NCBI RefSeq assembly: GCF_003610295.1
Contig: NZ_RAPV01000001.1
Span: forward strand, 4,526,001 to 4,590,000
Reading direction: 5' to 3'
Length of the DNA: 64,000 bases
Origin: Paraburkholderia sp. BL23I1N1
GTDB lineage: Bacteria > Pseudomonadota > Gammaproteobacteria > Burkholderiales > Burkholderiaceae
The notes beneath the pieces are model-generated. The model saw only the letters and a program-made list of their open reading frames with translations, was not told the DNA's origin and searched no databases. Positions 4,937 to 23,330 of this stretch are shown one piece after another. Position 1 is the first letter of the stretch. The number at the start of each line of letters is the position of its first letter. Position numbers and translations under genes: made by a program.

Positions 4937-5014
4937 GCAAAGGCGGCCAGCCGGACAGGCAGGTGTCTGCGCGCTTGTCTCGCGGAAAAGCCGAAACGCA
5001 GGCGCGGCGAGCGA

Positions 5015-5110
5015 AATGCGCATGCCGTGCCAGCGTTCCGTGGTGATTGCCCAGAATGCGCATGCCGCGACAGCGCTCCGCCGTCATCGCCCAGAATGCG
5101 CACGACGCAG
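5015..5110 (+). repeat. 40-bp tandem repeat, about 2.4 copies
   Basis: Units at 5015-5054 and 5055-5094 (each starting AATGCGCATGCCG and ending CGCCCAG or TGCCCAG), plus a partial third unit at 5095-5110. It lies in the pcaJ-pcaB gap. It is imperfect, has no spacers between units, and is not a CRISPR. The rest of the 4937-5359 gap shows nothing recognisable. Confidence 0.8.
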
Positions 5111-5359
5111 AATTGCTGCGTATCACCGGACATCACGGCGAATGGCGCACAGATGCTCTATACGGCAGATGCGGTGGGCAGATATAGCGGGCAGACGCGC
5201 GCATCCGGCCCGCCGTCGCGACGATGTTCGGAGCACAATGCGCCACAACGCCGTGTGCGGTACGCTCTCAATAGATAGCGCGTCTGGGTGCGCCTCACAG
5301 CGTGTCCAGGCCGCCCCGGCGAAACCTTCTCTTCCGTCTCCCTAGAAAACGACGCCACC

Positions 5360-6739: not shown

Positions 6740-6744
6740 CCGGC

Positions 6745-7536: not shown

Positions 7537-7928
7537 ACGACGAAGACCGCTACGAAGCCGGACTTGATGTGCGCCGCGCAGTGCTGGGCAGCGCGCACGT
7601 CGACCGGTCGCTCGCCAATCGCACTGAGTTGACCGACGAGTTCCAGAACTTTATTACCCGCTACGCGTGGGGCGAAATCTGGACGCGCGAAGGCTTGCCG
7701 CGTCACACGCGCAGCCTGCTGACCATCGCGATGATGGTCGCGCTCAATCGCAGCGAAGAACTCGCATTGCATTTGCGCGCCGCGAAAAACAATGACGTGA
7801 CGCGCGAGCAGATCAAGGAAGTGTTGCTGCAAACCGCGATCTATTGCGGCGTGCCGGCGGCCAACTCGGCGTTTCATCTGGCCGATAAGCTGTTCCGCGA
7901 AGACGACGCTGCAGCCGCGAAGCCGTAA
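7533..7928 (+). CDS. pcaC: 4-carboxymuconolactone decarboxylase
   Basis: 131-residue AhpD-like/CMD-fold protein. It decarboxylates 4-carboxymuconolactone to 3-oxoadipate enol-lactone. Typical segments: RTELTDEFQNFITRYAWG, the helix ELALHLRAAKNN, and the tail AIYCGVPAANSAFHLA. It starts inside the pcaD stop. pcaHG (the dioxygenase) and pcaF (thiolase) are not in the window, so this operon covers only the middle and lower pathway. Confidence 0.95.
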   Translation: MNDEDRYEAGLDVRRAVLGSAHVDRSLANRTELTDEFQNFITRYAWGEIWTREGLPRHTRSLLTIAMMVALNRSEELALHLRAAKNNDVTREQIKEVLLQTAIYCGVPAANSAFHLADKLFREDDAAAAKP

Positions 7929-8022: not shown

Positions 8023-8058
8023 GCCTGAAGCGTACGTCAGACAAACCGCTCTTCAGGC
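8023..8058. terminator. Possible bidirectional terminator between pcaC and tetR
   Basis: Perfect 8-bp inverted repeat GCCTGAAG (8023-8030) / CTTCAGGC (8051-8058) with a 20-nt loop, between convergent genes. It overlaps the stop codon of the TetR gene. No proper T tract, so weak. Confidence 0.3.
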
Positions 8059-8754
8059 AATCCTGCTCTCGTTCATCACTGCGGTTTCCGCCGGCAACTG
8101 CAAGCGCACCGCGCGCAACACCGTATCCTTGATGACCTCGCGCCAATGCGCGAGTGCGGCCTTGTCCATCAGCGCTTCACCGAGAAACGCACCCAACGTG
8201 TACTGATTGGCGTTATAGAAATAACCGAGCGACGCGATCATCAGGTACACGTCACGCGCCTTGACGTCCGCACGAAAGACGTTTTGCGCCTGACCTGCGT
8301 CCAATAGCTTCTGCACGACCGAAATCGCATAGCCGGAAATCTCCTTCAGCTTTAACGATTTCTTCGCGTGTTTGCCCTGGTGCAGATTTTCGCTCGACAG
8401 CAGCGTGACGAACTCGGGATGATCGAGGTAGTACTGCCAGACGAATTCGACCATTTGCTCGAGGCCATGCGCGGGATCGTCCAGGTCGAGATCGAGCTTG
8501 CTTTCGGCCTCGTTGAACTGCGCGTAGATCGTCTCCAGAACTTCGACAAATAATTGTTCCTTGCTGCCGAAGTAGTAATAGATCATCCGGTCGTGCGAAC
8601 GCGCGGCCTTCGAAATACTTTCGACTCGGCCGCTTGCAAAGCCCTGCTTTGCAAAGACCTTGATGGCCGCTTTGAGAATCTTGGCGCGCGTATCTTGTGC
8701 CTGCTTCGCTCGGATGCCGATAGCGCCCGGCTTGCGGGCGGCAGTGGGACTCAT
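8053..8754 (-). CDS. TetR-family transcriptional regulator, divergent from the nicotinate-type operon
   Basis: 233 residues. The TetR N-terminal helix-turn-helix covers about residues 20-66 (AKILKAAIKVFAKQGFASGR, then HDRMIYYYFGSKEQLFVEVL). The C-terminal ligand domain is of the TetR_C type. The start at 8754 is chosen because GAGATC precedes it and the family begins there; the frame is open to 8934 without protein-like content. It is divergent from the 9133-23330 operon with a 378-bp shared upstream region, so it is the obvious candidate regulator of that operon, with the ring compound or an intermediate as effector. Ligand unknown. Confidence 0.85.
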   Translation of the reverse strand: MSPTAARKPGAIGIRAKQAQDTRAKILKAAIKVFAKQGFASGRVESISKAARSHDRMIYYYFGSKEQLFVEVLETIYAQFNEAESKLDLDLDDPAHGLEQMVEFVWQYYLDHPEFVTLLSSENLHQGKHAKKSLKLKEISGYAISVVQKLLDAGQAQNVFRADVKARDVYLMIASLGYFYNANQYTLGAFLGEALMDKAALAHWREVIKDTVLRAVRLQLPAETAVMNESRIA

Positions 8755-8919
8755 GGCGGTCTCGGATCTCTTTGTTAGCGTCGGGTTGAACGGCATGCGC
8801 CGTAGCCGCTTAGGTGCGCTTAGGGTGCACAGGTACGCTTCAGCATGGCGCGACTTCATCATACAGCCCATATTACGCGCGACGAAATGCCCTGCGCGAT
8901 AACGTGCTTCGGCGTAGAT

Positions 8920-8933
8920 TGAATCGAGATTCA
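8920..8933. promoter_or_regulatory. Candidate TetR operator TGAATC-GA-GATTCA
   Basis: Perfect 6-2-6 inverted repeat in the region between the divergent TetR gene and the reductase gene. It is AT-rich relative to its surroundings and well placed for autoregulation plus operon control. The rest of 8755-9132 shows no gene. Confidence 0.35.
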
Positions 8934-9132
8934 TTCGGCGATGCCGCGCCGCAGCATCCCGATCTCCGCTGGGAAACTCATTGCGCAGTCTATTTTGATC
9001 GAGTAGATTTCAAGCAAGTTTGGTTTAGCAAATACTACACGAACGGTGAGTGACCGCAACATGGAAGAACGCGGGTCACGCGAAAGTCACTTTAAACAGG
9101 GGCTATTCGTCAGCCGGGCAGGACCGATTGTA

Positions 9133-10761
9133 ATGTCGTCGTATGGGAACCCCACCATGACAGAACATACGAAGGTCGATTTCGGTGCAGAGAGCGTCGA
9201 CGGCGAAACCGCCTCGACACCCGGTCCGACCGTGCTCGAGAAAGCGGCGCCGCGCAGCGAGCGGATGGCGTCGAACAAGATCGAATGCAATGCGTGCCCG
9301 GTGTTGTGCCAGATATCGGAGGGCCGCACGGGCGCATGCGATCGTTATGCGAATGCGGATGGGCGGCTGATTCGCGTCGACCCTGTGGTGTTTCTGTCGC
9401 GCGCGGCTTTACCCGAAGCGGGCACGAGCGCTGTGGATGCCACGGTCGAATTTGGTGCGTCGTCCGAAGCACGCGATCTTGCCTCGGAACAGGCGCTCTT
9501 CGTGACCGGCATTGGTGCATCGTCCACGTATCCTGACTACAAGCCCGCGCCTTTCATTGTTGCCTCGAAGCTCGACGACGTCGACATGATCACGGTCGTG
9601 ACCGAGGGTATTTTCAGCTATTGCAGTTTCAAGGTGAAGATCGATACCGACCGCTTTCTCGGGCCGGAGCAATCGAACGTGCGTTGCCAGGGCGAGATCG
9701 TCGGGCATGTGACCACGGCGGAGTATGGCTCGCAGATGCTGAGCCTCGGCGGCGTGCATCATCTGACTGGCGGCAGCAAGAAAGAAGGCCGCGTGACGTG
9801 CGACATGATGCTCGCGCTCGGCAACAAGGAAGCGGTGGAGTTGAGCATCGACGGCGGCGCAAGTTTGGTGATTCGCGCGGGCGCGGCGCCGATTGTCGAC
9901 GGCGTCGAAGAGCAGCGTATGCGGGTGGGCTGCGGGTCCGCCACCATCGGTATCTTCGCCAAGCAATGGTTCGGTCACGCCGACGAAGTGGTGGTGGTCG
10001 ACGATCACATCACGGGCGTGCTCACTGAACACCAGGCAGGCCGCTGCCTCGGCATGACGCGCTCAGGTCTGAAGATTCGCGGACGCAAATCGACCCCGGG
10101 CCGCTATTTCCAGGTCGCGAATCCCGGCACCGGATGGGGCGGCACCGACATTCAGGATCCGCTGGCGATTGTCGAAGGCTTCGATCCCGCCGTGGCGAAA
10201 CCGGGTATGCGCTTGCTGATGGTGTCGACTACCGGCGAACACGCGCAGTGGTATGAGCTCGATCAGGACCTCGTGCCGCGCATCGCCGCCATGCCGGATG
10301 CTGTGCGCCGCACGGTCGAACGGATCGGCGAAAATTGCGAGCCGTCGCTCGCCACGGTGCTGTTTCTCGGCGGCGCGGGCGGCAGCTTGCGAGCGGGCGC
10401 AACGGAGAATCCGGTCCTGCTCACACGCGCCATCAAACAGAAGCTGGTCAACGTAACATGTGGCGGGGCACCCGCGTATGTGTGGCCGGGTGGCGGCATC
10501 ACCGTAATGGTGGATGTTTCGCGCATGCCAGATCGATCGTTCGGCACCGTGCCGACGCCCGCGATCGTCGCGCCGATCGAATTCACCATGACGTATGACG
10601 CGTATCGCGATCTCGGCGGCCATCTTGACGCAGTGCGTTCGCTGGAAAACGTACTGGCGAACGGGCCCGAGCATACGGAAGGGGCGCCGCTCGCGCGCAG
10701 AACATTGGCGCGTAATCCCGACAACCCGTGGCCGCCCGCCATGCCGCGGATGCCTGGCTAA
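9133..10761 (+). CDS. 6-hydroxynicotinate reductase homologue (iron-sulfur protein)
   Basis: 542 residues. Best match by recognition is the family of clostridial 6-hydroxynicotinate reductase (Hnr), which reduces 6-hydroxynicotinate to 1,4,5,6-tetrahydro-6-oxonicotinate and carries Fe-S clusters and a covalently bound flavin. A cysteine motif C-x2-C-x3-C-x9-C (Cys52, 55, 59, 69; ECNACPVLCQ) looks like an Fe-S site. Seven further cysteines are scattered (YCSF, RCQG, TCDM, GCGS, RCLG, NCEP, TCGG). IDGGAS and GGAGGSLRAG are glycine-rich patches. ATG 9133 is preceded by AGGA; ATG 9157 is an alternative start. It is the first gene of the operon that also encodes enamidase and nicotinate dehydrogenase homologues. 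Function is by family and context, not proven. Confidence 0.75.
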   Translation: MSSYGNPTMTEHTKVDFGAESVDGETASTPGPTVLEKAAPRSERMASNKIECNACPVLCQISEGRTGACDRYANADGRLIRVDPVVFLSRAALPEAGTSAVDATVEFGASSEARDLASEQALFVTGIGASSTYPDYKPAPFIVASKLDDVDMITVVTEGIFSYCSFKVKIDTDRFLGPEQSNVRCQGEIVGHVTTAEYGSQMLSLGGVHHLTGGSKKEGRVTCDMMLALGNKEAVELSIDGGASLVIRAGAAPIVDGVEEQRMRVGCGSATIGIFAKQWFGHADEVVVVDDHITGVLTEHQAGRCLGMTRSGLKIRGRKSTPGRYFQVANPGTGWGGTDIQDPLAIVEGFDPAVAKPGMRLLMVSTTGEHAQWYELDQDLVPRIAAMPDAVRRTVERIGENCEPSLATVLFLGGAGGSLRAGATENPVLLTRAIKQKLVNVTCGGAPAYVWPGGGITVMVDVSRMPDRSFGTVPTPAIVAPIEFTMTYDAYRDLGGHLDAVRSLENVLANGPEHTEGAPLARRTLARNPDNPWPPAMPRMPG

Positions 10762-10824
10762 CAGCGATAACATGACCGGTGCAACGAACGCAACGAACGC
10801 AATCAACACAACGCAACGAACCCG

Positions 10825-11763
10825 ATGAACGCAACCCGCACCCAACTCGACGCGGCCCGCTGGCATTGGCAGCATGGTCCGATCGATCTGATCCTCAGCG
10901 CGGACGGCGAACCCTCGGCGGTGCAGGCCGCGTACGAGGCGTGCTGGGCGCGTTTTGTAGACGTGTTGCCTGAGTTGGTCGGCGAGTTGAAGCTGCTGCG
11001 GCAGCCAGTGCCGAGCGACGCGGCGCATGGCGACAACGTGCTGAACGGCTCCGTTGCGCGCCGCATGTGGAGCGCCTGCCATCCTCACCGCGCACGCTAC
11101 ATCACGCCGATGGCGGCGGTTGCAGGCAGTGTCGCGGATGAATTGATCACGGCGTTCGCAGGTGAAGGCATAGCGCGCGCCTTCATCAACAACTGCGGCG
11201 ACATCGCGCTCTATCTGAGCGAAGGGCAACAATACCGCGTCGGCGTGTTCGCCGATCTGGCGACGTTCTCCGGTACGACGCTGTCAGGCGATCAAGCGCT
11301 AGACGCAAACCTGACGCTCGACGCCGCCATGCCGATTCGCGGCGTCGCGACAAGCGGCTGGCGTGGGCGCAGCTTTAGCCTCGGCATTGCCGACAGCGTG
11401 ACGGTGCTCGCCCGCAACGCCGCCACCGCCGATGCCGCCGCGACGATGATCGCCAACGCCGTCAATCTCGACCATGCGGGCATTGTGCGCAGGCCGGCTT
11501 CGTCGCTGAAGGACGATAGCGATCTGGGCGACATGCTCGTGACGGTCGACGTGCCGTCCTTGCCGCAACCGTCGATCGATTTCGCGCTCGCGCGCGGCGT
11601 CGAGGCAGCGCGACGTTTGCAGGAACAAGGCTTGATCGAAGGTGCCGCGCTGTTCTTGCAAGGGCGGGCACGTGTGACCGATACGCATCGCAATGGCGCG
11701 TTATTCAGGAATCGCGCTGAAATAACAACGGAGGCTCCGTGTTCGAAATACGCCGCGTGCTGA
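10825..11763 (+). CDS. UPF0280 family protein (ApbE superfamily)
   Basis: 312 residues of the UPF0280/COG2122 family, distant relatives of ApbE FAD:protein FMN transferases. Recognisable segments: FAGEGIARAFINNCGDIALY (ApbE-like NxGGDI analogue), RGVATSGWRGRSFSLGIADS and the aspartate-rich SLKDDSDLGD. No signal peptide, so cytoplasmic. It sits between the reductase and the DUF1185 pair and overlaps the next gene by 25 bp. Because the characterised reductase has covalent flavin, a role in flavin attachment is a reasonable inference. The 60-bp gap upstream holds short CAACGAACG direct repeats. Confidence 0.75.
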   Translation: MNATRTQLDAARWHWQHGPIDLILSADGEPSAVQAAYEACWARFVDVLPELVGELKLLRQPVPSDAAHGDNVLNGSVARRMWSACHPHRARYITPMAAVAGSVADELITAFAGEGIARAFINNCGDIALYLSEGQQYRVGVFADLATFSGTTLSGDQALDANLTLDAAMPIRGVATSGWRGRSFSLGIADSVTVLARNAATADAAATMIANAVNLDHAGIVRRPASSLKDDSDLGDMLVTVDVPSLPQPSIDFALARGVEAARRLQEQGLIEGAALFLQGRARVTDTHRNGALFRNRAEITTEAPCSKYAAC

Positions 11764-12329
11764 CGCACGTCGAAGACATTTTCCACGAGTTCGGTCCCGC
11801 GCCCGCACAGCCGTTGCGGCGCGGCGCGATTGCCGCGGTAATGACGAATCCGTTCGCCGGCCGCTACGAAGCTAGAATCGAGCACGCGATGGAAGCGCTC
11901 AAGCCAATCGGCCTCGACATGGCGCAGCGGCTGCTGGCGGCGATGGCCGTGCCGCACGCGTCGATCGAAAGCTACGGCAAGGGTGCAATCGTCGGCTCGC
12001 GTGGCGAACTCGAGCACGGCGCGTTGTGGCATGTCCCCGGTGGCTATGCGATGCGCGAATTGCTGGAGAAAAACGGCGTGCCGACCAACGCAATCGTGCC
12101 GTCGACCAAGAAAGTCGGCGCGCCTTCCACCGCGCTCGACGTGCCACTGACCCATGTCAACGCGAGCTACGTGCGCAGCCATTTCGACGCGATCGAAGTG
12201 CGGGTGCCCGGTGCGCCCGCTGCGGACGAACTGGTGGTTATCCTCGTGATGAGCACCGGACAGCGCGTGCATGCGCGTGTCGGCGGGCTTGCGAAAGAGG
12301 CGATTGTGGGCAAGGACGGTCTGCGTTGA
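11739..12329 (+). CDS. Amino acid synthesis (DUF1185) family protein, copy 1
   Basis: 196 residues of the PF06684-type 'amino acid synthesis' family, whose biochemical role is unknown to me. Conserved features: NPFAGRYE near residue 37, SYGKGAIVGSRGELEHG near 75-90, PSTKKVGAP, LDVPLTHVNASYVRSHFDAI and the C-terminal GKDGLR. Start at 11739 overlaps the UPF0280 gene. It is paralogous to the gene at 12410. Presence of both in a pyridine-type catabolic operon suggests a hetero-oligomer or two related steps on ring-opened products. Confidence 0.75.
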   Translation: MFEIRRVLTHVEDIFHEFGPAPAQPLRRGAIAAVMTNPFAGRYEARIEHAMEALKPIGLDMAQRLLAAMAVPHASIESYGKGAIVGSRGELEHGALWHVPGGYAMRELLEKNGVPTNAIVPSTKKVGAPSTALDVPLTHVNASYVRSHFDAIEVRVPGAPAADELVVILVMSTGQRVHARVGGLAKEAIVGKDGLR

Positions 12330-12409
12330 GCGGCGTTTGATCCACGCAATGCGCTGAAGCAAAAAGCCGAAGCAACAGGCAGAACACGCATCGAAACCCG
12401 GAGAGTGAC

Positions 12410-12994
12410 ATGGCAATCAAGCTTCGCAAGCTCGTCGTACAGGTCGATGAAACACGCATTGAAATGGGGCAGGCCGTCGAGCCGCCGTCACGCCGTGCAG
12501 TCGCGATTGCGGTGATCGATAATCCGTACGCGGGCCGCTACGAACCCACGCTGGACGCGTTGATCGAAGCCGGCGAGGAACTCGGCGCGTTGCTCGGCAA
12601 TAAGTGCGTCGAGGCGTTAGGCATCAAACCGGGCGAAGCGCAAAGCTACGGCAAGGCGGCGATCGTCGGCGAAGCGGGCGAGCTCGAACATGCGGCCGCG
12701 ATCCTGCATCCCAAGCTCGGCGCTCCGCTGCGGGTCGCGGTCGAAAAGGGCGCGGCGCTGGTGCCATCGGCGAAAAAAATGGGTACGCTCGGCACTGCAA
12801 TCGACGTGCCGCTGGGCCACAAGGACGCCGCCTTCGTGCGCAGCCATTTCGACGCGATCGAGGCGCGGGTGTCGGACGCGCCGCGTGCGAACGAAATCGT
12901 CGTGGCCGTTGCGGTGACGGCTTCGGGCCGGCCGCTGCCGCGCATCGGCGGCTTGCAGGTGAGTGAAATCAAGGGCGAAGACGGTTTGCGCTGA
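12410..12994 (+). CDS. Amino acid synthesis (DUF1185) family protein, copy 2
   Basis: 194 residues, clearly a paralogue of the previous gene along its full length: NPYAGRYE, SYGKAAIVGEAGELEHA, PSAKKMGTLGTAIDVPLGHK, FVRSHFDAIEARV and GEDGLR at the end. It differs mainly in the middle (HPKLGAPLRVAVEKGAA versus the glycine/tyrosine-rich stretch of copy 1). GGAG ribosome site 6 bp before ATG. It follows copy 1 by 80 bp and precedes the transporter permease gene by 18 bp. Confidence 0.75.
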   Translation: MAIKLRKLVVQVDETRIEMGQAVEPPSRRAVAIAVIDNPYAGRYEPTLDALIEAGEELGALLGNKCVEALGIKPGEAQSYGKAAIVGEAGELEHAAAILHPKLGAPLRVAVEKGAALVPSAKKMGTLGTAIDVPLGHKDAAFVRSHFDAIEARVSDAPRANEIVVAVAVTASGRPLPRIGGLQVSEIKGEDGLR

Positions 12995-13012
12995 GTCATC
13001 TTAAGGGTCGCG

Positions 13013-14953
13013 ATGTTTTCGAATTTGCTGGTACAGCTGGTCAACGGACTCGCCGACGCGTCGACGCTGTTTCTCGTCGCCGCCGGTTTGTCGTTGATCT
13101 TTGGCGTGACGCGCATCGTCAACTTCGCCCACGGTTCGTTCTATATGTTCGGCATCTATGTCGCGTATAGCATCGCGAGCCGTTTCGGTCATACGGCGGG
13201 CGGCTTCTGGCTCTCGGTGTTGGCGGCTGCCCTGGTGGTCGCGGTGCTGGGCGCGCTGGTCGAAATGATCGTGTTGCGGCGTATCTACCAGGCCCCCGAG
13301 TTGTTTCACCTGCTGGCCACCTTCGCGCTCGTGCTGATCTTTCGCGATGCCGCGCTGTGGCTGTGGGGTCCGGAAGATCTCTTCGGACCTCGCGCGCCGC
13401 ATCTGGCAGGCGCGGTCGATTTCCTCGGCCATCCGCTACCGACCTACGATATCGCGCTGATCGTGATCGCGCCGGTGGTGTTGCTGCTGCTCTGGTATGC
13501 GTTGACGCGCACGCGCTGGGGCACGCTGGTGCGCGCCGCGACGCAGGATCGCGAGATGCTCGGCGCGCTCGGCATCAATCAGGCGTGGCTGTTTACCGGT
13601 GTTTTTTTCGTCGGCGCATTTCTCGCCGGCCTGGGTGGCGCGCTGCAAGGGCCGCGGATGTCGGCGAATCTCTCGCTGGATCTGGAGACCATCGGCAATG
13701 CGTTCGTGGTCGTCGTGGTCGGCGGCATGGGGTCGATTCCGGGCGCATTCGTCGCGGCCTTACTAATCGCCGAGATCAAGGCGCTGTGCATCGGCATCGG
13801 CCATGTGTCGGTGTTCGGTATCGATCTGTCGTTGAGCCGCTTTACGCTCGTCGCGGAATTCGTGGTGATGGCGGTGGTACTGGTGGTGCGGCCCTGGGGT
13901 TTGCTAGGGAAGGCGAGTGCCGCGGTGCGTGGCGTGGCGGCGCCTGAAGCGCCATTGAGGCCTGCAGGCAAGCGCCTGAAGTGGTTGGCGGCCATCGCGT
14001 TGCTGGTGCTGATACTCGCGCCGCTGGCGGCCAACGCATTTCCCTACATGCCGGTGCTGCTGGTTGAAATCCTGATCGCCGTGTTGTTCGCAACGAGTCT
14101 GCATTTCATCATGGGCCCCGGCGGCATGCATTCATTTGGCCACGCCGCGTATTTCGGCCTGGGCGCATACGGCGCCGCGTTGTTCCTCAAAGTGCTGAAT
14201 CTGCCGATGGAAGCCGCGCTGCTGCTCGGCCCCTTGCTCGCGGTGGCGGGCGCGATTGTGTTCGGCTGGTTTTGCGTGCGCCTCTCAGGCGTCTACCTCG
14301 CGATGCTGACGCTCGCGTTCGCGCAGATCGTCTGGTCGGTCGTGTTCCAGTGGGACGACGTGACGGGCGGCAGTAACGGCATTCTCGGCTTGTGGCCGTC
14401 GAACTGGTTGTCCTCGCCGGTGGCTTTTTACTATCTGACGCTCGCCTGTGCGGTGCTGGGAGTGTGGCTGCTGCGCAAGATGCTGTTCTCGCCGCTGGGT
14501 TATGCGATGCGGGCGTCGCGCGATTCGGTGCTGCGCGCCGAGGCAATCGGCATCGACGTGAAACGCGTGCAGTGGGCGGCGTTCGTCGTCGCGTCGCTAT
14601 TTTGCGGACTCGCCGGATCGCTTTATGCCTTCTCCAAGGGGACGATTTCACCGGAAGTGATCAGCGTGAGCCGCTCGGTGGATGGCCTCGTGATGGTGCT
14701 GCTTGGCGGCTTGCAAACCTTGACGGGCCCGATCGTCGGCGCCGCCGTGTTCACCTGGCTGCAGGACACCGTTGCGCGGCAAACCGATTATTGGCAGGCG
14801 TTGCTGGGGTTCGCGATCCTGCTGCTGGTGATTGCGTTTCCGCAGGGTATCGTCGGTTTCATTCGTGAGCGTTTTGGCGACGATACGGTGGATAAGGCCG
14901 AAGAGCGTTCCGCAGCGCCATCGCAAGGTGCGGCGATCAAGGAGGGGCTATGA
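13013..14953 (+). CDS. Branched-chain-type ABC transporter, fused LivH-LivM permease
   Basis: 646 residues. The N-terminal half (about 1-295) is a LivH-type permease (IFGVTRIVNFAHGSFYMFGI; GGMGSIPGAFVAALLIAE). A linker at about 300-320 leads to a LivM-type permease (about 325-620; FGHAAYFGLGAYGAALFL; VLLGGLQTLTGPIVGAAVF). About 16 membrane segments in total. The two permeases are usually separate genes; fusion is a known variant. The gene overlaps the ATPase gene by 4 bp. By context it imports the ring substrate rather than leucine, together with the binding protein at 22122. Confidence 0.9.
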   Translation: MFSNLLVQLVNGLADASTLFLVAAGLSLIFGVTRIVNFAHGSFYMFGIYVAYSIASRFGHTAGGFWLSVLAAALVVAVLGALVEMIVLRRIYQAPELFHLLATFALVLIFRDAALWLWGPEDLFGPRAPHLAGAVDFLGHPLPTYDIALIVIAPVVLLLLWYALTRTRWGTLVRAATQDREMLGALGINQAWLFTGVFFVGAFLAGLGGALQGPRMSANLSLDLETIGNAFVVVVVGGMGSIPGAFVAALLIAEIKALCIGIGHVSVFGIDLSLSRFTLVAEFVVMAVVLVVRPWGLLGKASAAVRGVAAPEAPLRPAGKRLKWLAAIALLVLILAPLAANAFPYMPVLLVEILIAVLFATSLHFIMGPGGMHSFGHAAYFGLGAYGAALFLKVLNLPMEAALLLGPLLAVAGAIVFGWFCVRLSGVYLAMLTLAFAQIVWSVVFQWDDVTGGSNGILGLWPSNWLSSPVAFYYLTLACAVLGVWLLRKMLFSPLGYAMRASRDSVLRAEAIGIDVKRVQWAAFVVASLFCGLAGSLYAFSKGTISPEVISVSRSVDGLVMVLLGGLQTLTGPIVGAAVFTWLQDTVARQTDYWQALLGFAILLLVIAFPQGIVGFIRERFGDDTVDKAEERSAAPSQGAAIKEGL

Positions 14954-15759
14954 GCTTGCTGCGCGTATCCGGCCTCTCCAAATCGTTCGGCGGATTGAAA
15001 GCGGTCGACGACGTTTCCTTCGATCTCGAAGCCGGTCAACTGCTGGCATTGCTCGGTCCGAATGGCGCAGGCAAGTCGACCTGCTTCAACATGGTCAACG
15101 GGCAACTGCGGCCGTCGTCCGGTTCGATTCGCCTCGACGATCATGAGCTGGTCGGCATGCAGCCGCGCGATATCTGGCGGCTGGGTGTCGGCCGCACGTT
15201 CCAGATTGCCGCGACCTTCAATTCGATGACCGTGCTCGAGAACGTGCAGATGGCGCTCGTCTCGCGCGAACGCAAGACGTTCGGCCTGTGGAAACCCGCA
15301 GGCTCGCGCTACGCCGATGAAGCCATGACGCTGCTCGAACAGGTTGGCATGGGCGCCGACGCGAACCGCGCCTGCGGCGTGCTCGCCTACGGTGACGTTA
15401 AACGCGTCGAACTCGCTATCGCGCTGGCGAACCGCCCCAAGCTGCTGCTGATGGACGAACCTACTGCCGGCATGGCGCCAAAGGAGCGCAACGATCTGAT
15501 GGCGCTGACCAAGCGTCTCGTCATGGAGCACAAAATCGGCGTGTTATTTACCGAGCACAGCATGGACGTTGTATTCGCGTACGCCGATCGCATGATCGTG
15601 CTCGCGCGCGGCAAGCTGATCGCGGAGGGCGACGCCGAAACGATCCGCAACGACGCACGCGTGCAGGAAGTCTATTTCGGCACGGGCAAGACCTTCCAGC
15701 CACACGCGCCGCTGCATGAAGCGGCCGGCGGCCATCTAGGACAAGGGGCGCTGCAATGA
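14950..15759 (+). CDS. livG: ABC transporter ATP-binding protein, LivG type
   Basis: 269-residue ATPase. Walker A GPNGAGKST at residues 36-44, LivG-type degenerate signature LAYGDVKR, Walker B LLLMDEPTAGM, and H-loop FTEHSMDVVF. ATGA overlaps with both the preceding permease gene and the following livF-type gene show translational coupling. livG here denotes the family, not a proven leucine role. Confidence 0.9.
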   Translation: MSLLRVSGLSKSFGGLKAVDDVSFDLEAGQLLALLGPNGAGKSTCFNMVNGQLRPSSGSIRLDDHELVGMQPRDIWRLGVGRTFQIAATFNSMTVLENVQMALVSRERKTFGLWKPAGSRYADEAMTLLEQVGMGADANRACGVLAYGDVKRVELAIALANRPKLLLMDEPTAGMAPKERNDLMALTKRLVMEHKIGVLFTEHSMDVVFAYADRMIVLARGKLIAEGDAETIRNDARVQEVYFGTGKTFQPHAPLHEAAGGHLGQGALQ

Positions 15760-16469
15760 GCGAGCCGATGCTGAAAGTCTCCGGCCTCAATGCGTTCTAT
15801 GGCCGCGCGCACATTCTGTTCGACGTGGGCCTCGAAGTCGGCCGCGGCGAAGTGGTTGCGCTGATGGGCCGCAACGGCGCGGGCAAATCGACAACGATGA
15901 AAGCGGTAATGGGTCTGCTGCCGCGCCGCCAGGGCGAAGTGCGCTTTCGCGGGCAAAACATCACGGCGTTGCCGCCGTATCGCATCGCTCGGATGGGCAT
16001 GGGTTTTGTCCCCGAAGACCGCCGGGTGTTCTCGGATCTGACGGTAATGGAAAACCTCGATACAGGCCGTCAACCACCACGCGAAGGCGCGCCGCAATGG
16101 ACGCCGGAAAAACTGTTCCGCCTGTTCCCCAATCTCGGCGAAATGCCGAAACGCCCAGGCGGCCAGATGAGCGGCGGCGAGCAGCAGATGCTCACGGTTT
16201 CACGCACGTTGATGGGCAATCCGTACCTGGTGCTGCTCGACGAACCGTCCGAGGGCGTCGCACCTGTGATCGTCGAACAGATGGCGAACATGATTCTCGA
16301 ACTCAAGCGTGAAGGGCTGTCAATTCTGTTGTCCGAACAGAATCTGCACTTCGCCGAGCTGGTCAGCGACCGCGCGTACGTCCTCGAAAAAGGACAGATT
16401 CGCTTCAGCGGCACGATCGGTGAACTCGCGAAGAACGAAACAGTGAGGCGCGCTTATCTGAGCGTGTGA
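15756..16469 (+). CDS. livF: ABC transporter ATP-binding protein, LivF type
   Basis: 237-residue ATPase. Walker A GRNGAGKST, signature MSGGEQQ, Walker B LVLLDEPSEGVAP, H-loop SEQNLHFAELV. It pairs with the LivG-type ATPase on the fused permease. A 91-bp gap separates it from the enamidase gene, with a GGAG ribosome site for the latter and no terminator, so the operon continues. Confidence 0.9.
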   Translation: MSEPMLKVSGLNAFYGRAHILFDVGLEVGRGEVVALMGRNGAGKSTTMKAVMGLLPRRQGEVRFRGQNITALPPYRIARMGMGFVPEDRRVFSDLTVMENLDTGRQPPREGAPQWTPEKLFRLFPNLGEMPKRPGGQMSGGEQQMLTVSRTLMGNPYLVLLDEPSEGVAPVIVEQMANMILELKREGLSILLSEQNLHFAELVSDRAYVLEKGQIRFSGTIGELAKNETVRRAYLSV

Positions 16470-16560
16470 GCTCATCGGCACAAGGCGTGCAGGGTATGCA
16501 CGCGCGCTGCGCCGGGCAGTCGTTGCGAACCGTTGTGAATCGTTGCACAAGGAGAAGCAG

Positions 16561-17760
16561 ATGGCAGCAGAGACGTTGACAGGCTTGTCGGGCAAGGTCG
16601 CCGTAACGAACATTGGTCTGCTGTTATCCGGCGATATCGACCAGCCGATTCTCGACGCGGACACGCTGGTGATCGACGACGGCGTGATCGTCGCGCTCGG
16701 CCGCGAGAAAGATTGCGACCTCGAAGGCGCGCGGACTACGGTCGATTGCAAAGGCACCACGGTCGCGCCGGGCCTGATCGACTCCCACGTGCATCCGGTG
16801 TTCGGCGACTGGACGCCGCGGCAGAATCAGATGGGCTGGATCGAATCGAATCTGAACGGCGGCGTGACGACCATGATTTCGGCGGGCGAAGTGCATTTGC
16901 CTGGTCGTCCGAAAGACGTGCTCGGCGTCAAGGCACTCGCGATTACCGCTCAACGCTCGTTCGAAGGGATGCGTGGCGCGGGTGTCGGCGGCGGCGTGAA
17001 AGTCATGGCGGGTGCGCCGGTGATCGAGAAGGGCATGGTCGAAGAGGACTTCAAGGAGCTCTCGGAGGCGGGCGTAAAGCTGCTCGGCGAAGTGGGCCTC
17101 GGCAGCGTGAAGGGTGGTGAGGAAGCGGGGCAAATGGTCGCGTGGGCGCGCAAGTATGGTATTCAAAGCACGATTCACACGGGAGGACCGTCGATTCCGG
17201 GCTCGGGTCTGATCGATCGGGACGTGGTGCTTGCGGCTGACGCGGACGTGATCGGCCACATCAACGGTGGGCATACGTCGCTTTCCTATCGGCATGTCTG
17301 CGATCTATGCGAGCAATCGAGCCGCGCGCTGGAGATCGTCCACAACGGCAACGAGCGGATCGCTTTGCTCACCGCGCGTCACGCGATCGAATTGAAATGC
17401 CCGCATCGGATCATTCTCGGCACCGATAGCCCGGCGGGTTCCGGCGTGCAGCCGCTCGGCATTCTGCGGATGATCGCGCTGATCTCCAGTCTCGCGGATA
17501 TTCCTGCTGAAATCGCCTTCTGTTTCGCGACCGGCAACACCGCGCGGCAACGCAATCTGCGGCAAGGGCTGATCGAAGTGGGCCGTCCTGCCGACCTCGT
17601 CTTCATGGACCGCGCGCAGCATACGGCGGCCGACACGCTGCTGGAAAGCGTGCAGCTCGGCGACATTCCCGGCGTCGGCATGGTGATGATCGATGGTTTG
17701 ATCCGCTGCCGGCGCAGCCGCAATACCCCACCGGCAACCGAAGTGCCGGTGGTGCTTTGA
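16561..17760 (+). CDS. Enamidase homologue (amidohydrolase superfamily)
   Basis: 399 residues of the amidohydrolase superfamily. It resembles enamidase, which hydrolyses 1,4,5,6-tetrahydro-6-oxonicotinate to ammonia and 2-formylglutarate. Metal ligands visible: His76 and His78 in GLIDSHVHPV, later HTGGPS and GHINGGHTS histidines, and Asp289 in ILGTDSPAGSG. The C-terminal beta-sandwich returns at QGLIEVGRPADLVFMD. Enamidases are Fe-Zn enzymes of this fold. No signal peptide. Placed between the ABC ATPases and nicA/nicB, it supplies the ring-opening step expected after the reductase. An imidazolonepropionase-like role is less likely given the neighbours. Confidence 0.8.
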   Translation: MAAETLTGLSGKVAVTNIGLLLSGDIDQPILDADTLVIDDGVIVALGREKDCDLEGARTTVDCKGTTVAPGLIDSHVHPVFGDWTPRQNQMGWIESNLNGGVTTMISAGEVHLPGRPKDVLGVKALAITAQRSFEGMRGAGVGGGVKVMAGAPVIEKGMVEEDFKELSEAGVKLLGEVGLGSVKGGEEAGQMVAWARKYGIQSTIHTGGPSIPGSGLIDRDVVLAADADVIGHINGGHTSLSYRHVCDLCEQSSRALEIVHNGNERIALLTARHAIELKCPHRIILGTDSPAGSGVQPLGILRMIALISSLADIPAEIAFCFATGNTARQRNLRQGLIEVGRPADLVFMDRAQHTAADTLLESVQLGDIPGVGMVMIDGLIRCRRSRNTPPATEVPVVL

Positions 17761-17791
17761 GCGCGCGCCGCACGGCGTGGCCGGCATTGTC

Positions 17792-18298
17792 ATGAACCGC
17801 CCGGCGCCTCTTACGCTGCACGTCAACGGCGCGACGCATGCTGTCAGCGCCGCTGCCGATACGCCGCTGCTCTATCTGCTGCGTAACGACCTCGCGTTGA
17901 ACGGTCCGAAGTTCGGCTGCGGTCTCGGCGAATGCGGTGCGTGTACCGTATTGCTCGACGGCATCCCTACGCGTTCATGCGTGACGACCGCGAAGGTTGC
18001 GTTAGGGCGTGAGATCACCACGCTCGAAGGACTGGGTACGCGTGCCGCGCTGCATCCCGTGCAGCAGGCTTTTATCGAAGAACAGGCCGCGCAGTGCGGC
18101 TATTGCCTGAACGGCATGATCATGACCGCCAAAGCGTTGCTCGATCGCGATCCGCATCCGGGTGTCGAGACGATTCGGCGGGAATTGTCGCGCAACCTCT
18201 GTCGCTGCGGTACGCATGTCGAGATCGTGCGCGCGGTGCAGCGCGCGGCCGTTTTGCTCGCCGAGCAACCGGCGCTGGATCAGGGAGCGTGTGCATGA
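17792..18298 (+). CDS. nicA: Nicotinate dehydrogenase-type 2Fe-2S subunit
   Basis: 168 residues with two [2Fe-2S] clusters. The plant-type cluster uses Cys43, 48, 51 and 63 (FGCGLGECGAC). The second uses Cys102, 105, 137 and 139 (QCGYC and NLCRCG). It relays electrons from the molybdopterin centre to the cytochrome domain of the next gene. Architecture and pairing with a molybdopterin-cytochrome c fusion match NicA of aerobic nicotinate hydroxylase. ATG 17792 is preferred over GTG 17777. Overlaps nicB by 4 bp. A hydroxylase for another N-heterocycle (isoquinoline 1-oxidoreductase-like) cannot be excluded. Confidence 0.8.
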   Translation: MNRPAPLTLHVNGATHAVSAAADTPLLYLLRNDLALNGPKFGCGLGECGACTVLLDGIPTRSCVTTAKVALGREITTLEGLGTRAALHPVQQAFIEEQAAQCGYCLNGMIMTAKALLDRDPHPGVETIRRELSRNLCRCGTHVEIVRAVQRAAVLLAEQPALDQGACA

Positions 18299-21200
18299 CC
18301 GGGCCGGATTTCAGTGTCGATCGCCGGGCCGCGCCGCTGTCGCGACGGCAGCTCTATGACGCGCAGAATGTGCTGATCGTCACGCGGCCGCCGCAGGCGC
18401 CGGTGCGAGCGGCGATTGGACAGCCGGGGTCGCGGTCTTCGTTCGTGCCGACGGAAGCCGACATGTTCCTCGTGGTGCGCGACGACGGCACGGTGGTCGC
18501 GTTCAACGGGCATGTCGATCTCGGGACCGGCATCGGCACGGCGCTTGCGCAGATCGTCGCGGAAGAACTCGACGTGCCGTTGACGCGTGTCTCGATCGTG
18601 CTCGGGCACACGAACGAAGCGCCGAATCAGGGTCCCACGATTGCGAGCGCCACGATCCAGATTTCGGCGGTGCCGTTGCGGCACGCGGCGGCGCAGGCGC
18701 GGCAGTTTCTGCTGGAGGAAGCAGCGCGACGCTTGAACGTGAGTGCCGACAATCTCGATGTGCGCGACGGTGTGGTTTTTCCGCGCGACGGCGGCAGCAC
18801 CCAGGGTATCGGCTACGGCGAACTGATCACTGGACGGCGAGTTGAATTGACGCTCGCCACCGATGCGCCGCTGAAATCGCCCGATACGTACAAGATCGTC
18901 GGCAAGAGCTCGCCGCGCGTCGATATCCCCGCGAAGGCCACGGGCGAATTGAGTTTCGTACATGACGTACGCGTGCCGGGCATGTTGCACGGCCGCGTGG
19001 TACGGCCGCCTTATGCGGGTGTCGCGCAGGGTGAGTTCATCGGCAATAGCCTGCTTCACGTCGACGAGAATTCTGTCAGCGACTTGCCCGGCATCGTCAA
19101 GGTGGTGGTGATCCGCGATTTTGTCGGCATCGTGGCGGAGCGCGAAGAGATCGCGCAACAAGCGGTGAAGCGCTTGAATGTGCAGTGGAAGGCGGTAGAG
19201 GGTTTGCCGCCGCTCGAAACCAGCGAGGAAGTGGAAGCTGCACTCAGAGCCAATCCGGCCAAACGACGCGACCTGGTGATCGAGGGCGATATCGACGCGG
19301 CACTCGCAGAAGACGCGTCTCGAACGCTGGAACGCACCTACGTATGGCCGTTTCAGATGCACGCGTCGATTGGACCCTCGTGCGCGGTGGCCGACTACCG
19401 GGAGGCGAAGCTGAAGGTTTGGTCGGGCACGCAGAATCCCCATTCGTTGCGTGCCGATCTCGCCTTGCTGATGGCGCTGGATGAATCGAACATCGAAATC
19501 GTGCGTATGGAAGCGGCAGGTTGCTACGGCCGCAATTGCGCGGACGATGTCGCCGCCGACGCCGCGCTGCTATCGCGCGCAACCGGCAGTCCGGTGCGCG
19601 TGCAGTTATCTCGCGAAGACGAGCATGCATGGGAGCCCAAAGGCGCTGCGCAATTGATGGACGTGCGCGGTGCATTAGATGCAGAAGGCGGACTCGCCGC
19701 ATACGACTTCGCGACGCGCTATCCATCGAACGACGCCCCCACGTTAGCGTTGCTTCTTACCGGAACCGTATCCGCGGAGCCGCAGGTATTCGAAATGGGC
19801 GACCGCACGTCTGTGCCGCCGTACGACTACCGGACCATGCGTATCGTCTGCGACGACACGCCACCGATTGTGCGAGCGTCGTGGTTGCGGGGCGTTTCCG
19901 CCTTGCCGAACACCTTCGCGCATGAGTCTTTCATCGACGAACTCGCGGCAGAAGCGGGCGTCGATCCCGTCGAGTTTCGGCTGAAGCATCTCACTGATCC
20001 GCGCGCGATCGATCTCGTCAAGGCGGTCGCGGAGAAAGCAGACTGGCAACTGCGTACAACCGCTTTGAAAGAAGCTCAGGAAGAGGGCGATGTTGCGCGC
20101 GGCAGAGGCTTCGCCTACGCCCGCTACGTGCACAGCAAATTTCCCGGCTTCGGCGCGGCGTGGTCCGCGTGGGTGGCTGACGTCGAGGTCAATCGCAAGA
20201 GCGGCGAGCTTGCCGTGACGCGCGTGGTGGTCGGGCAGGACACCGGCACCATGGTGAATCCTGACGGCGTGCGTCACCAGATACACGGCAATGTGATCCA
20301 GGCCACCAGCCGCGCGCTGAAAGAACGCGTGACGTTCGGCGAGAACGCGGTGACGAGCCAGGAGTGGGGGGCATATCCGATCCTGACTTTCCGTGAAGTG
20401 CCGGTGATCGACGTGGTGATGATGCCGCGCCACGGCGAGCCGCCGATGGGCACGGGCGAATCGGCTTCGCTGCCGGGCGCGGCGGCAATCGCCAACGCGT
20501 TGTACGACGCCACAGGTGTGCGTTTTCGCAGGCCGCCGTTCACGCCCGAGACGATTCGCGCCGCGCTCGCCGATGCGCAAGCGGATGAAGCGGCGGCACG
20601 CAAGAAGAGGCGCCGGCGGCTCGGTTTTCTCGGTGTAATCGCCGCGGGCGCGGCCGGCTGGCTCGGTGCATTAGCGATGACGCCACACGCCATTGCACCC
20701 CTTACGCCACCGCTCGCGAGCGCGTTCGCGCCCGACCTGGTGGCGCGCGGCAAACTGCTTGCGTCACTGGGCAATTGCGCGGTTTGCCATACCGCGCACA
20801 ACGGCGTGCCGAACGCGGGCGGTAAGCCGCTCGATACGCCATTCGGCACCGTCTACAGCACCAACATCACGCCGGACGGACAGACGGGCATCGGCACATG
20901 GTCGCTCGACGCATTCGTGCGGGCGATGCGCCAGGGGATCAGCCGCGACGGGCATCGTCTGTATCCCGCGTTCCCGTACACGTCGTTCAAAAACACCTCC
21001 AACGACGATCTGAAAGCGCTCTACGCGTACCTGATGGCGCAGACGCCGGTGCGCTCCCGTCCGCCGGAAACGAAGCTGGCCTATCCGTTCAGCGTGCGTC
21101 CGTTGATGGCCGCATGGAACGGGCTGTTTCTCGGGCGCAATACATTTGCAGCCAGTGCCACGCAAAGTGCGCAATGGAATCGCGGGGCGTATCTCGTGAA

Positions 21201-21906
21201 CGGCCTCGGCCATTGCAGCGCATGCCATACCCCGCGCAATGCGTTCGGCGCCGAGAAAACCGGCTCGGTCTTCATGGGTGGCGGCATGGCGGAAGGATGG
21301 GAAGCGCCCGCGCTGTCGACGCTTTCCAACGCGCCCGTGCCCTGGAGCGAAGACGAACTGTTCAGCTATCTGCGCTACGGTCACGCGCCGCTGCATGGCG
21401 TCGCAGCCGGGCCGATGGCGCCGGTGGTCAGCGATCTGACGGCATTGCCCGACAGCGATATTCGCGCGATGGCCGCGTATCTGGCGTCGTTGAATCCTCT
21501 TGAAGCCAACGCGGATCCTGTGGCGATGGCGCGTCAATACGAGCAGGCCAGCACGATGACGGGTACGGCGACCGGCCTTGGTGCACGTCTTTTCGACGGC
21601 GCGTGTGCGGCCTGTCATCACACGGGCAGCGGGCCGCAATTGTTTGGCGCGCATCCCTCGCTGGCGCTTAACACGAATCTGCACAGCACGACGCCCGATA
21701 ATCTGATTCGCGTGATTCTCGATGGGATCGGCTCGCCTGCGCGCCCCGAACTCGGTACGATGCCGGCTTATCGCGACAGTTTCAACGATGCCCAGGTCGC
21801 CGAGCTCGTGTCATACCTGCGTCAGCAATTTGCCGGCGGTAAGCCGGCATGGCAGGACGTCACGGCGAGCGTCGCCAGAATTCGCGCGACACCGCAGGCA
21901 GAGTGA
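18295..21906 (+). CDS. nicB: Nicotinate dehydrogenase-type molybdopterin subunit fused to tri-haem cytochrome c
   Basis: 1203 residues. The N-terminal 750 residues are a xanthine oxidase-family molybdopterin domain of the single-gene isoquinoline oxidoreductase type, ending with the catalytic-Glu motif MGTGESASLPGAAA. A basic linker (KKRRRR) and one membrane-spanning segment (about 780-800, GFLGVIAAGAAGWLGALAM) follow. Three cytochrome c domains then carry CAVCH at 828, CSACH at 974 and CAACH at 1104. This is the NicB layout: nicotinate is hydroxylated at C6 and electrons leave via cytochrome c to the respiratory chain. The start overlaps nicA. Confidence 0.85.
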   Translation: MTGPDFSVDRRAAPLSRRQLYDAQNVLIVTRPPQAPVRAAIGQPGSRSSFVPTEADMFLVVRDDGTVVAFNGHVDLGTGIGTALAQIVAEELDVPLTRVSIVLGHTNEAPNQGPTIASATIQISAVPLRHAAAQARQFLLEEAARRLNVSADNLDVRDGVVFPRDGGSTQGIGYGELITGRRVELTLATDAPLKSPDTYKIVGKSSPRVDIPAKATGELSFVHDVRVPGMLHGRVVRPPYAGVAQGEFIGNSLLHVDENSVSDLPGIVKVVVIRDFVGIVAEREEIAQQAVKRLNVQWKAVEGLPPLETSEEVEAALRANPAKRRDLVIEGDIDAALAEDASRTLERTYVWPFQMHASIGPSCAVADYREAKLKVWSGTQNPHSLRADLALLMALDESNIEIVRMEAAGCYGRNCADDVAADAALLSRATGSPVRVQLSREDEHAWEPKGAAQLMDVRGALDAEGGLAAYDFATRYPSNDAPTLALLLTGTVSAEPQVFEMGDRTSVPPYDYRTMRIVCDDTPPIVRASWLRGVSALPNTFAHESFIDELAAEAGVDPVEFRLKHLTDPRAIDLVKAVAEKADWQLRTTALKEAQEEGDVARGRGFAYARYVHSKFPGFGAAWSAWVADVEVNRKSGELAVTRVVVGQDTGTMVNPDGVRHQIHGNVIQATSRALKERVTFGENAVTSQEWGAYPILTFREVPVIDVVMMPRHGEPPMGTGESASLPGAAAIANALYDATGVRFRRPPFTPETIRAALADAQADEAAARKKRRRRLGFLGVIAAGAAGWLGALAMTPHAIAPLTPPLASAFAPDLVARGKLLASLGNCAVCHTAHNGVPNAGGKPLDTPFGTVYSTNITPDGQTGIGTWSLDAFVRAMRQGISRDGHRLYPAFPYTSFKNTSNDDLKALYAYLMAQTPVRSRPPETKLAYPFSVRPLMAAWNGLFLGRNTFAASATQSAQWNRGAYLVNGLGHCSACHTPRNAFGAEKTGSVFMGGGMAEGWEAPALSTLSNAPVPWSEDELFSYLRYGHAPLHGVAAGPMAPVVSDLTALPDSDIRAMAAYLASLNPLEANADPVAMARQYEQASTMTGTATGLGARLFDGACAACHHTGSGPQLFGAHPSLALNTNLHSTTPDNLIRVILDGIGSPARPELGTMPAYRDSFNDAQVAELVSYLRQQFAGGKPAWQDVTASVARIRATPQAE

Positions 21907-21943
21907 GATTGCCAGACGTAATGCAGTACGGTTTGCCGCGTCA

Positions 21944-22039
21944 CTTGCAGCATTGCTTGCAGTAGCTCTTGCAGTAGCTCTTGCAGCAGAACTTGCAGCA
22001 GAACTTGCAGCAGAACTTGCAGCAGAACTTGCAGCACGG
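21944..22039 (+). repeat. 12-bp tandem repeat, 8 units, between nicB and the binding-protein gene
   Basis: Eight 12-bp units of CTTGCAGCAGAA type: two CTTGCAGTAGCT, four exact CTTGCAGCAGAA and diverged ends CTTGCAGCATTG and CTTGCAGCACGG. Because 12 is a multiple of three, the frame of the downstream gene stays open through the array (reading LQQN). Slippage would change spacing in steps of 12 without breaking that frame. It lies 83 bp before the binding-protein start. Confidence 0.9.
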
Positions 22040-22121
22040 CTCGCTGACCGAATCGCGAAACGTTTTAACGCTTGATAAAAACGACCGCATTCCCGCAATC
22101 CTTTTGATAACGGAGAAACGC

Positions 22122-23330
22122 ATGACCACGCGCGCAGGATGGATCTCTCGCCTTACGGTTTCAACGGTGCTATCGCTCGCGGCCTTTGGCGCGAGCGCGC
22201 AGCAGACCATCAAGATCGGTGAAATCAACAGCTACAAGGCGCAGCCTGCCTTTCTCGGGCCTTACAAGAATGGTTGGAATCTGGCGCTAGACCAGGTGAA
22301 TGCGGCGGGCGGTGTCCTTGGCAAACAGCTCGAAGTCGTGTCGCGCGACGACAACGGCAATCCGGGCGACACGATCCGCGTCGCGCAGGAGTTGATTGCG
22401 CGTGAGCAGGTGCAATTGTTGTTCGGCGGATTCCTGTCGAACACGGGTCTTGCGTTGACCGACTTCGCGAAGCAGAAGAAGATTTTCTTCCTCGCGGCCG
22501 AGCCGTTGACTGACAAGATTGTTTGGGCTGACGGCAACAAATACACGTACCGTCTGCGTCCTTCGACGTATATGCAGGTGGCGATGCTGGTGCCCGAGGC
22601 GGTGAAGCTGAAGAAGAAACGCTGGGCGCTCGTGTATCCGAACTACGAGTACGGGCAATCGGCGGTGGCGACGTTCAAGAAGCTGATGATGGCGGCGCAG
22701 CCGGACGTGGAGTTTGTCGCCGAGCAGGCGACGCCGCTGGGCAATGTCGACGCGGGTGCGGTTACGCAGGCGATTGCCGATGCGAAGCCCGATGCGATTT
22801 TCAACGTGCTGTTTGGCGCCGATCTCGGCAAGTTTGTGCGCGAGGGTAATACGCGCGGGTTGTTCAAGGATCGCAGCGTGGTGTCGTTGTTGACGGGGGA
22901 GCCGGATTATCTTGATCCGTTGGGGGCGGAGGCGCCGACGGGCTGGATTGTGACGGGGTACCCGTGGTATTCGATCGATACGGCGGCCAACAAGAAGTTT
23001 GTGGACGCGTATCAGGCGAAGTATCACGATTATCCGAGACTGGGGTCGGTGGTCGGGTATTCGGCGTTGATGTCGATTGCTGCGGGGATTAAGAAGGCTG
23101 GGTCTACTGATCCGGATAAGTTGGCTGCCGCGTTTAAGGGGCTAGGGGTGGAGACGCCCTTCGGGCCGATTACCTTTCGGACGCAGGATAATCAGTCGAC
23201 AATGGGGGCTTTTGTCGGGGTTACCGGTCTTAAGGATGGCAAAGGGGTGATGACTTCGTATCGGTATATTGATGGGGCTAGTGTGCAGCCTTCTGATGCT
23301 GAGGTTAAGAAGTTACGGGCGAGTGAGTAG
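22122..23330 (+). CDS. Periplasmic substrate-binding protein of the Liv-type importer
   Basis: 402-residue type I periplasmic binding protein (Peripla_BP_6 class) with a signal peptide cleaved after about residue 28 (SLAAFGASAQQ). The mature part starts TIKIGEINSYK. Conserved family segments: ALDQVNAAGGVLGKQLEVV and RDDNGNPGDTIRVAQELI. The start at 22122 is set by CGGAGAAACGC and the signal peptide; the frame stays open upstream into the 12-bp repeat but a start there would bury the signal. It is the last gene of the operon and the partner of the 13013-16469 transporter genes. Ligand is inferred from context to be nicotinate or a related ring acid. Confidence 0.85.
   Translation: MTTRAGWISRLTVSTVLSLAAFGASAQQTIKIGEINSYKAQPAFLGPYKNGWNLALDQVNAAGGVLGKQLEVVSRDDNGNPGDTIRVAQELIAREQVQLLFGGFLSNTGLALTDFAKQKKIFFLAAEPLTDKIVWADGNKYTYRLRPSTYMQVAMLVPEAVKLKKKRWALVYPNYEYGQSAVATFKKLMMAAQPDVEFVAEQATPLGNVDAGAVTQAIADAKPDAIFNVLFGADLGKFVREGNTRGLFKDRSVVSLLTGEPDYLDPLGAEAPTGWIVTGYPWYSIDTAANKKFVDAYQAKYHDYPRLGSVVGYSALMSIAAGIKKAGSTDPDKLAAAFKGLGVETPFGPITFRTQDNQSTMGAFVGVTGLKDGKGVMTSYRYIDGASVQPSDAEVKKLRASE

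Follow-up and report, generated by a model that had tools for sequence, protein, structure and literature searches.

A putative aerobic reductive nicotinate operon in Paraburkholderia and the pairing of its 6-hydroxynicotinate reductase homologue with a UPF0280 protein

Gene content and assignment of the operon

The operon described here lies in a stretch of 64,000 nucleotides (the window) from Paraburkholderia sp. BL23I1N1, at positions 4,526,001 to 4,590,000 of the 6.98 Mb contig NZ_RAPV01000001.1 in a genome of 9.1 Mb. Between window positions 9133 and 23330, a single co-directional run encodes a homologue of 6-hydroxynicotinate reductase (Hnr), a UPF0280 protein, two PF06684 proteins, LivHM, LivG, LivF, an enamidase, NicA, NicB and a binding protein, and a TetR-family gene diverges from its start (Table 1). 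The preliminary description of this DNA had proposed such a run facing a TetR regulator, including a complete Liv-type importer and a NicA/NicB pair with cytochrome c, and all of these were found in place. UPF0280 and the PF06684 pair are operon members that it had left out. The identical gene order was found again in Paraburkholderia loci and is therefore not due to chance.

At E 0.001, no Pfam or NCBIfam model recognizes the first gene product. It is named Hnr because its plasmid homologues are annotated as "6-hydroxynicotinate reductase" and because of the published cluster discussed below; it is 97% identical to the Hnr of Paraburkholderia haematera and 95% identical to that of P. xenovorans LB400 (L012). 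The enamidase matches the Eubacterium barkeri enamidase 2vun nearly over its full length (371 bits, 384 residues). The amidohydrolase metal-site motifs are kept: HVH, GEVGLG, HTGG and HINGG are common to both proteins, and GTDSP stands opposite GNDAP. NicA and NicB are 66 and 55% identical, respectively, to their counterparts in the nic cluster of Pseudomonas BYT-5. With two [2Fe-2S] domains in NicA, and with molybdenum (Mo)-cofactor domains, a Mo-type GTGE motif, a hydrophobic span (776-794) and three CxxCH motifs (828, 974 and 1104) in NicB, the pair has the two-subunit NicAB architecture. The haem motifs and the hydrophobic span suggest that electrons could exit toward the periplasmic side and the respiratory chain.

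On plasmids, the NicB search matched 1079 records, of which 40 were listed and six opened (H27, H30, H32, H34, H37 and H41). The six NicB proteins are 55-60% identical to that of the window, and all lie in classic nic-type clusters. Their neighbors are an alpha/beta hydrolase, an Asp/Glu racemase and an N-carbamoylsarcosine amidohydrolase or isochorismatase-family protein. A flavin adenine dinucleotide (FAD)-dependent monooxygenase is found beside NicB in five of the six (the gene in that place in H37 is named NAD(P)-binding protein), and a 2,5-dihydroxypyridine 5,6-dioxygenase is named nearby in four, with a "leucyl aminopeptidase" in its place in H32 and H37. By our own reading, these neighbors are NicD, NicE, NicF, NicC and NicX. 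Among the 40 matches listed, H44 and H53 carry NicB a few kilobases from Hnr.

In the window, the NicC, NicX, NicE and NicF queries gave no match at E 0.001. The one match to NicD, at 6763-7041, is weak (32% over 94 residues), of alpha/beta hydrolase type and outside the operon run, which agrees with the earlier claim that the operon lacks genes of the NicC/NicX/NicD/NicF type.

Hnr, enamidase, nicotinate hydroxylase and transporter, gathered in one cluster, complete the Azorhizobium-type gene set. Judged from sequence, and leaving aside what UPF0280 and the PF06684 proteins may do, this is very probably an aerobic reductive nicotinate operon of that type. The reactions and the electron path would, we infer, be as follows. 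Nicotinate would be taken up by the Liv importer and hydroxylated to 6-hydroxynicotinate by NicAB, the electrons passing via its haems to the respiratory chain. Hnr, as a flavin/Fe-S enzyme, would reduce the ring to 1,4,5,6-tetrahydro-6-oxonicotinate, which the enamidase would then open, releasing ammonia and leaving 2-formylglutarate. In the last part this product would be decarboxylated and oxidized, giving glutarate. A membrane-bound hydroxylase with a c-type cytochrome path, as well as a glutarate branch, have been reported in earlier work, and genes for the first three steps reportedly occur in nine Proteobacteria.

The preliminary description had presented the operon as a genetic basis for an aerobic reductive nicotinate route. 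Homology and context support this pathway reading well. The genetic basis was not an open matter, however: the description knew only the biochemical report on Azorhizobium, and the cluster itself is not new, being already in print in PMC3511419. That paper describes it for Azorhizobium caulinodans (AZC_2804-2790), Bradyrhizobium japonicum (blr3818-3830), Rhodopseudomonas palustris HaA2 and strain SG-6C, all four of them Alphaproteobacteria, and reports that SG-6C broke down nicotinate as well as 6-hydroxynicotinate, both during growth and as resting cells. In further papers, A. caulinodans is grouped with E. barkeri in a pathway comparison (PMC9304392), its nicotinate dehydrogenase mutant still uses 6-hydroxynicotinate (PMC3357923), and several of the nicotinate dehydrogenases reviewed are cytochrome-linked (PMC10331938). 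Among the papers listed in a literature search on the reductase, the enamidase and their relatives, none was closer than PMC3511419.

Table 1. Features of the operon and its divergent regulator gene (window positions)
Feature	Position	Strand	Basis
TetR-family regulator	8053..8754	-	TetR_N and TetR_C_29; start 8754 picked by eye, open reading frame extends to 8934
Hnr, 6-hydroxynicotinate reductase homologue	9133..10761	+	Annotated homologues, alignment, published cluster; N-terminal CxxCxxxC...C (C52, C55, C59, C69)
UPF0280 (COG2122), distant ApbE relative	10825..11763	+	NF003322 405.6 bits (cut-off 290); Pfam ApbE 22 bits, under the cut-off of 25.6; 2o34 match
PF06684 (DUF1185/AA_synth) protein 1	11739..12329	+	PF06684, E 3.5e-66
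PF06684 protein 2	12410..12994	+	2qtp 289.6 bits, 3byq 118.2 bits
Fused LivH-LivM permease	13013..14953	+	BPD_transp_2 in two stretches
LivG-type ATPase	14950..15759	+	Family-model matches
LivF-type ATPase	15756..16469	+	Family-model matches
Enamidase (amidohydrolase)	16561..17760	+	2vun, E 6.5e-110
NicA-like 2x[2Fe-2S] subunit	17777..18298	+	Fer2, Fer2_2; identity to BYT-5 NicA (66%)
NicB-like Mo hydroxylase, hydrophobic span and three haem-c motifs	18295..21906	+	Domains, motifs, identity, tree
Liv-type substrate-binding protein	21981..23330	+	Likely true start near 22122, ahead of a signal-peptide-like stretch (by eye)

Around these genes, a 12-base unit is tandemly repeated (7.8 copies, 21943-22036) in the gap that separates nicB from the probable start of the binding-protein gene. 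Just upstream of the operon, at 3475-7928, a beta-ketoadipate (pca)-like set was recognized by eye (CoA-transferase subunits, PcaB-like and PcaC-like proteins). A palindrome at 8917-8936 was considered as the TetR operator and rejected, as a similar sequence (at most four mismatches) is found in just 9 of 80 loci.

Coupling of Hnr to UPF0280 and exchange of the pathway ends

Hnr and UPF0280 were searched for in 398 Pseudomonadota genomes. Hnr matched in 33 (32 after G245 was dropped, with 37 residues at E 3.2e-4) and UPF0280 in 34, of which 32 are above the cut-off (G293 and G373 fell below it and were dropped). The two co-occur in the identical 32 genomes, representing 15 genera. In every one UPF0280 follows Hnr in the same orientation, and no computed gap exceeds 525 bases, the largest value (19 of the 32 gaps were computed and the other 13 taken from match tables). 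PF06684 is present in 31 of these 32 genomes, which speaks for the operon reading. G386 was counted despite one TGA inside its UPF0280 match, and G016 despite an Hnr match in two pieces.

The same arrangement is found in 79 of the 80 genome_contigs loci that were kept out of 101 (49 of the 80 are titled Paraburkholderia or Burkholderia): UPF0280 follows Hnr within 300 bases in 78 and at 1.5 kb in L080, while in the 80th, L047, the sequence stops 103 bases past Hnr. All 26 Hnr-bearing plasmid records carry UPF0280, and 26 of the 27 with UPF0280 carry Hnr. The 27th, from Hydrogenophaga BPS33, is not counted against the pairing because an Hnr C-terminal remnant (30 residues, 50%, E 1.9e-4) is kept between IS1071 and UPF0280. 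This region corresponds to L145 8799-9852, and the record has four UPF0280 places in all. Overall, the coupling of Hnr and UPF0280 is near-perfect, and it is new here; the sets include kin, so that the co-occurrences are not independent events. The coupling provides a specific, testable client for the UPF0280 family. The 32 of 398 sampled genomes also indicate how common the route is, and the cluster is now extended to Paraburkholderia. DUF39 was considered as a UPF0280 partner in Pseudomonadota and rejected, being found in none of 200 genomes searched.

The genes at both ends of the route were compared on an Hnr tree of 46 rows chosen by the author: the window, 28 other loci (two Paraburkholderia) and 17 of 18 further regions, L134 (G016) being left out. 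Both ends could be assigned in 26 rows. The other 20 lack an assignment at one end, either for want of sequence or because no gene was recognized there, and this should not be read as absence of the gene. Within the fetched stretches, NicAB is combined with the enamidase in 14 rows and with HyuAB in two (L102 and L131), and an XDH-type hydroxylase with the enamidase in five (L067, L070, L071, L075 and L124) and with HyuAB in another five (L078, L104, L126, L128 and L130). For L048, L069, L135 and L136, NicAB was called from NicA together with, at most, a portion of NicB. Along the tree, a quick one with SH-aLRT support only, the hydroxylase type switches at least four times and the opener at least twice.

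Twenty rows make up the NicB tree; a number of Hnr-linked proteins were omitted since their locus ends inside the gene, and several of those used are cut short. Hnr-linked NicB, including that of the window, is interleaved with NicB of classic nic-type clusters, with at least two changes of linkage. Monophyly of the 13 Hnr-linked against the six nic-linked proteins was rejected (p-AU 7.6e-6, on a quick tree in which one row is long and the outgroup very long). The pathway ends are thus interchangeable, NicAB or XDH-type hydroxylase at one and enamidase or HyuAB at the other, in all four combinations, which is likewise new here. This exchange marks 6-hydroxynicotinate as a branch point at which oxidative and reductive pathways have been recombined.

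Rieske ring-hydroxylating oxygenase genes were also seen in the Hnr stretch of L049, L054, L062, L066, L071, L079 and L104. Six Alcaligenaceae loci (L049, L051, L054, L057, L058 and L062) have no NicAB or XDH-type gene within reach.

Possible helper roles and alternative readings

The pairing leads to the new proposal that UPF0280 serves in the maturation of Hnr and may do so by inserting the flavin. The E. barkeri Hnr is reported to contain a covalent flavin, a [2Fe-2S] and two [4Fe-4S] clusters. Across 32 aligned Hnr sequences seven cysteines are invariant (C52, C55, C59, C69, C164, C267 and C402 in window numbering), and a loose xxxTGGS motif occurs once in each. In the AlphaFold model of Hnr (mean pLDDT 63.4, pTM 0.51) residues 208-220, which include the TGGS stretch, fall below 50. 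A weak GCV_T_C match covers residues 165-200 of the window protein (E 0.032; 2.1e-4 in the best of 32 members). UPF0280 matches the D. vulgaris-type protein 2o34. All 30 aligned UPF0280 sequences keep Ser177 (in an ATSG stretch), Asp203 and Thr207, as well as N122, N123, G125 and D126 of an NNxGD motif. The review PMC12052999 gives an Asp-Ser-His triad for ApbE, and by eye the Ser and Asp of UPF0280 seem to match two of its residues.

On this basis, UPF0280 would be a dedicated Hnr maturation factor, a role that the pairing suggests. It is a tentative reading that it acts as a divergent, His-less flavin installer for the single client Hnr, and that the two proteins form a fixed ring-reducing core to which bacteria can join different hydroxylases (cytochrome- or FAD-linked) and different ring openers (hydrolytic or ATP-driven). 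If true, a cofactor role would also be suggested for COG2122 in homocysteine synthesis.

Several observations weigh against the overall interpretation of the operon and its helper proteins. The catalytic-His segment of ApbE has no counterpart in UPF0280 (alignment, by eye), which leaves the triad incomplete, and the flavinylation motif D-x-x-[S/T]-G-A-[S/T] is found in none of the 32 Hnr sequences. A search of the window gave no ferredoxin-NADP reductase resembling the one in L103; such a gene is present in 8 of the 80 genome_contigs loci. Of the 59 genomes (among 398) that carry PF06684, 28 have no Hnr; G139 has Hnr but no PF06684, and PF06684 was not found near Hnr in L066, L077, L078 and L080. 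Finally, Desulfovibrio needs COG2122 to make homocysteine, a function for which no part played by flavin is described (PMC5764234).

Because the His counterpart is lacking, "maturation factor" is held more firmly for UPF0280 than "flavin transferase". There is close to an even chance that UPF0280 acts on Hnr otherwise, either by helping to mature it in an Fe-S or persulfide-type process or by being a structural subunit, which would replace only the flavin part of the proposal. The missing His segment and the missing flavinylation motif both speak for this, as does the persulfide role that others have suggested for COG2122 with DUF39; the Ser, Asp, Thr and NNxGD residues kept throughout the alignment, two of them seemingly triad-like, speak against it. 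As a possible electron donor for Hnr, the ferredoxin-NADP reductase near it may be considered; the eight loci are L047, L048, L053, L056, L059, L060, L065 and L069.

For the enamine or formyl-acid step, the PF06684 pair is put forward as a candidate. Of the 388 plasmid records that match PF06684, 60 were listed as a spread and five opened. In four of the five it lies near an alpha/beta hydrolase, a flavin reductase, an LLM flavin-dependent oxidoreductase and an aldehyde dehydrogenase, presumably trigonelline-type clusters; the fifth differs. A third PF06684 gene of the host (L144 5926-7907) has an amidase-like open reading frame (by eye) and the genes of a Liv-type importer as neighbors, and no genes of the trigonelline type. 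A chorismate-mutase-like fold is described for PF06684 in PMC2954203. In PMC7913881, the DUF1185 protein HcdD is related to TgnF of trigonelline degradation and showed no stimulating effect. For this reason, and with the third host copy in another context, a role at the formyl-dicarboxylate or enamine step is only weakly suggested.

A separate nicC-nicX-nicDEF locus, raised in the preliminary description, was found in part. Relatives of NicE (80%), NicD (56%), NicX (52%, 342 residues) and NicF (36%), compared with the Pseudomonas BYT-5 plasmid, are clustered at 2.25 Mb of C1 in the host genome, but the genome holds no close NicC: the query gives partial pieces of 28-46% (best 39% over 82 and 30% over 186 residues), none inside that locus. 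The locus (L115 3591-15630) also has a Rieske oxygenase, a three-gene Mo hydroxylase and a PF04909 protein. By comparison with pic clusters, a tentative guess for its substrate is picolinate. Other NicB matches in the host reach 34% over most of the length, or are partial (38% in the Mo part, 46% in the haem part).

This second locus makes it conceivable that NicAB feeds an oxidative maleamate route encoded there and that the reductive genes serve another purpose. With NicC pieces lying elsewhere, a locus that has a Mo hydroxylase of its own besides the Rieske oxygenase and the PF04909 protein, as expected for a different substrate such as picolinate, and Hnr and enamidase co-directional with nicAB, this is very improbable. 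It would be less surprising, though still unlikely, if the operon degraded another pyridine carboxylate or close N-heterocycle and the names Hnr and enamidase were misleading. Substrates may differ between loci, as Hnr also accompanies XDH-type hydroxylases, and HyuAB in place of the enamidase, and the host has another pyridine-type locus; against this stand the NicB interleaved with classic nic-type NicB and the nearly end-to-end match to the E. barkeri enamidase.

Comparison with known systems

The closest known system is the cluster of PMC3511419, which also has Hnr, genes for the first three steps, an ABC transporter and two conserved unknown proteins. It differs in its organisms, and the likeness rests on the described gene content, not on gene order or hydroxylase type.

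The fermentation cluster reported for E. barkeri has Hnr and the enamidase in common with the Paraburkholderia operon. Family-model scans of the operon recognized no gene for its methyleneglutarate branch. Its nicotinate dehydrogenase is the four-subunit NdhFSLM, as stated in PMC10331938, in contrast to the cytochrome-linked NicAB found here. The Pseudomonas-type nic cluster of plasmid pBYT5-1 has NicAB in common, at the identities given above. It proceeds via NicC, NicX, NicD, NicE and NicF, whereas the window operon would proceed via Hnr and the enamidase.

The COG2122/UPF0280 protein of Desulfovibrio homocysteine synthesis belongs to the same broad family as that of the window (PMC5764234). 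Its partner there is DUF39, whereas here it is Hnr.

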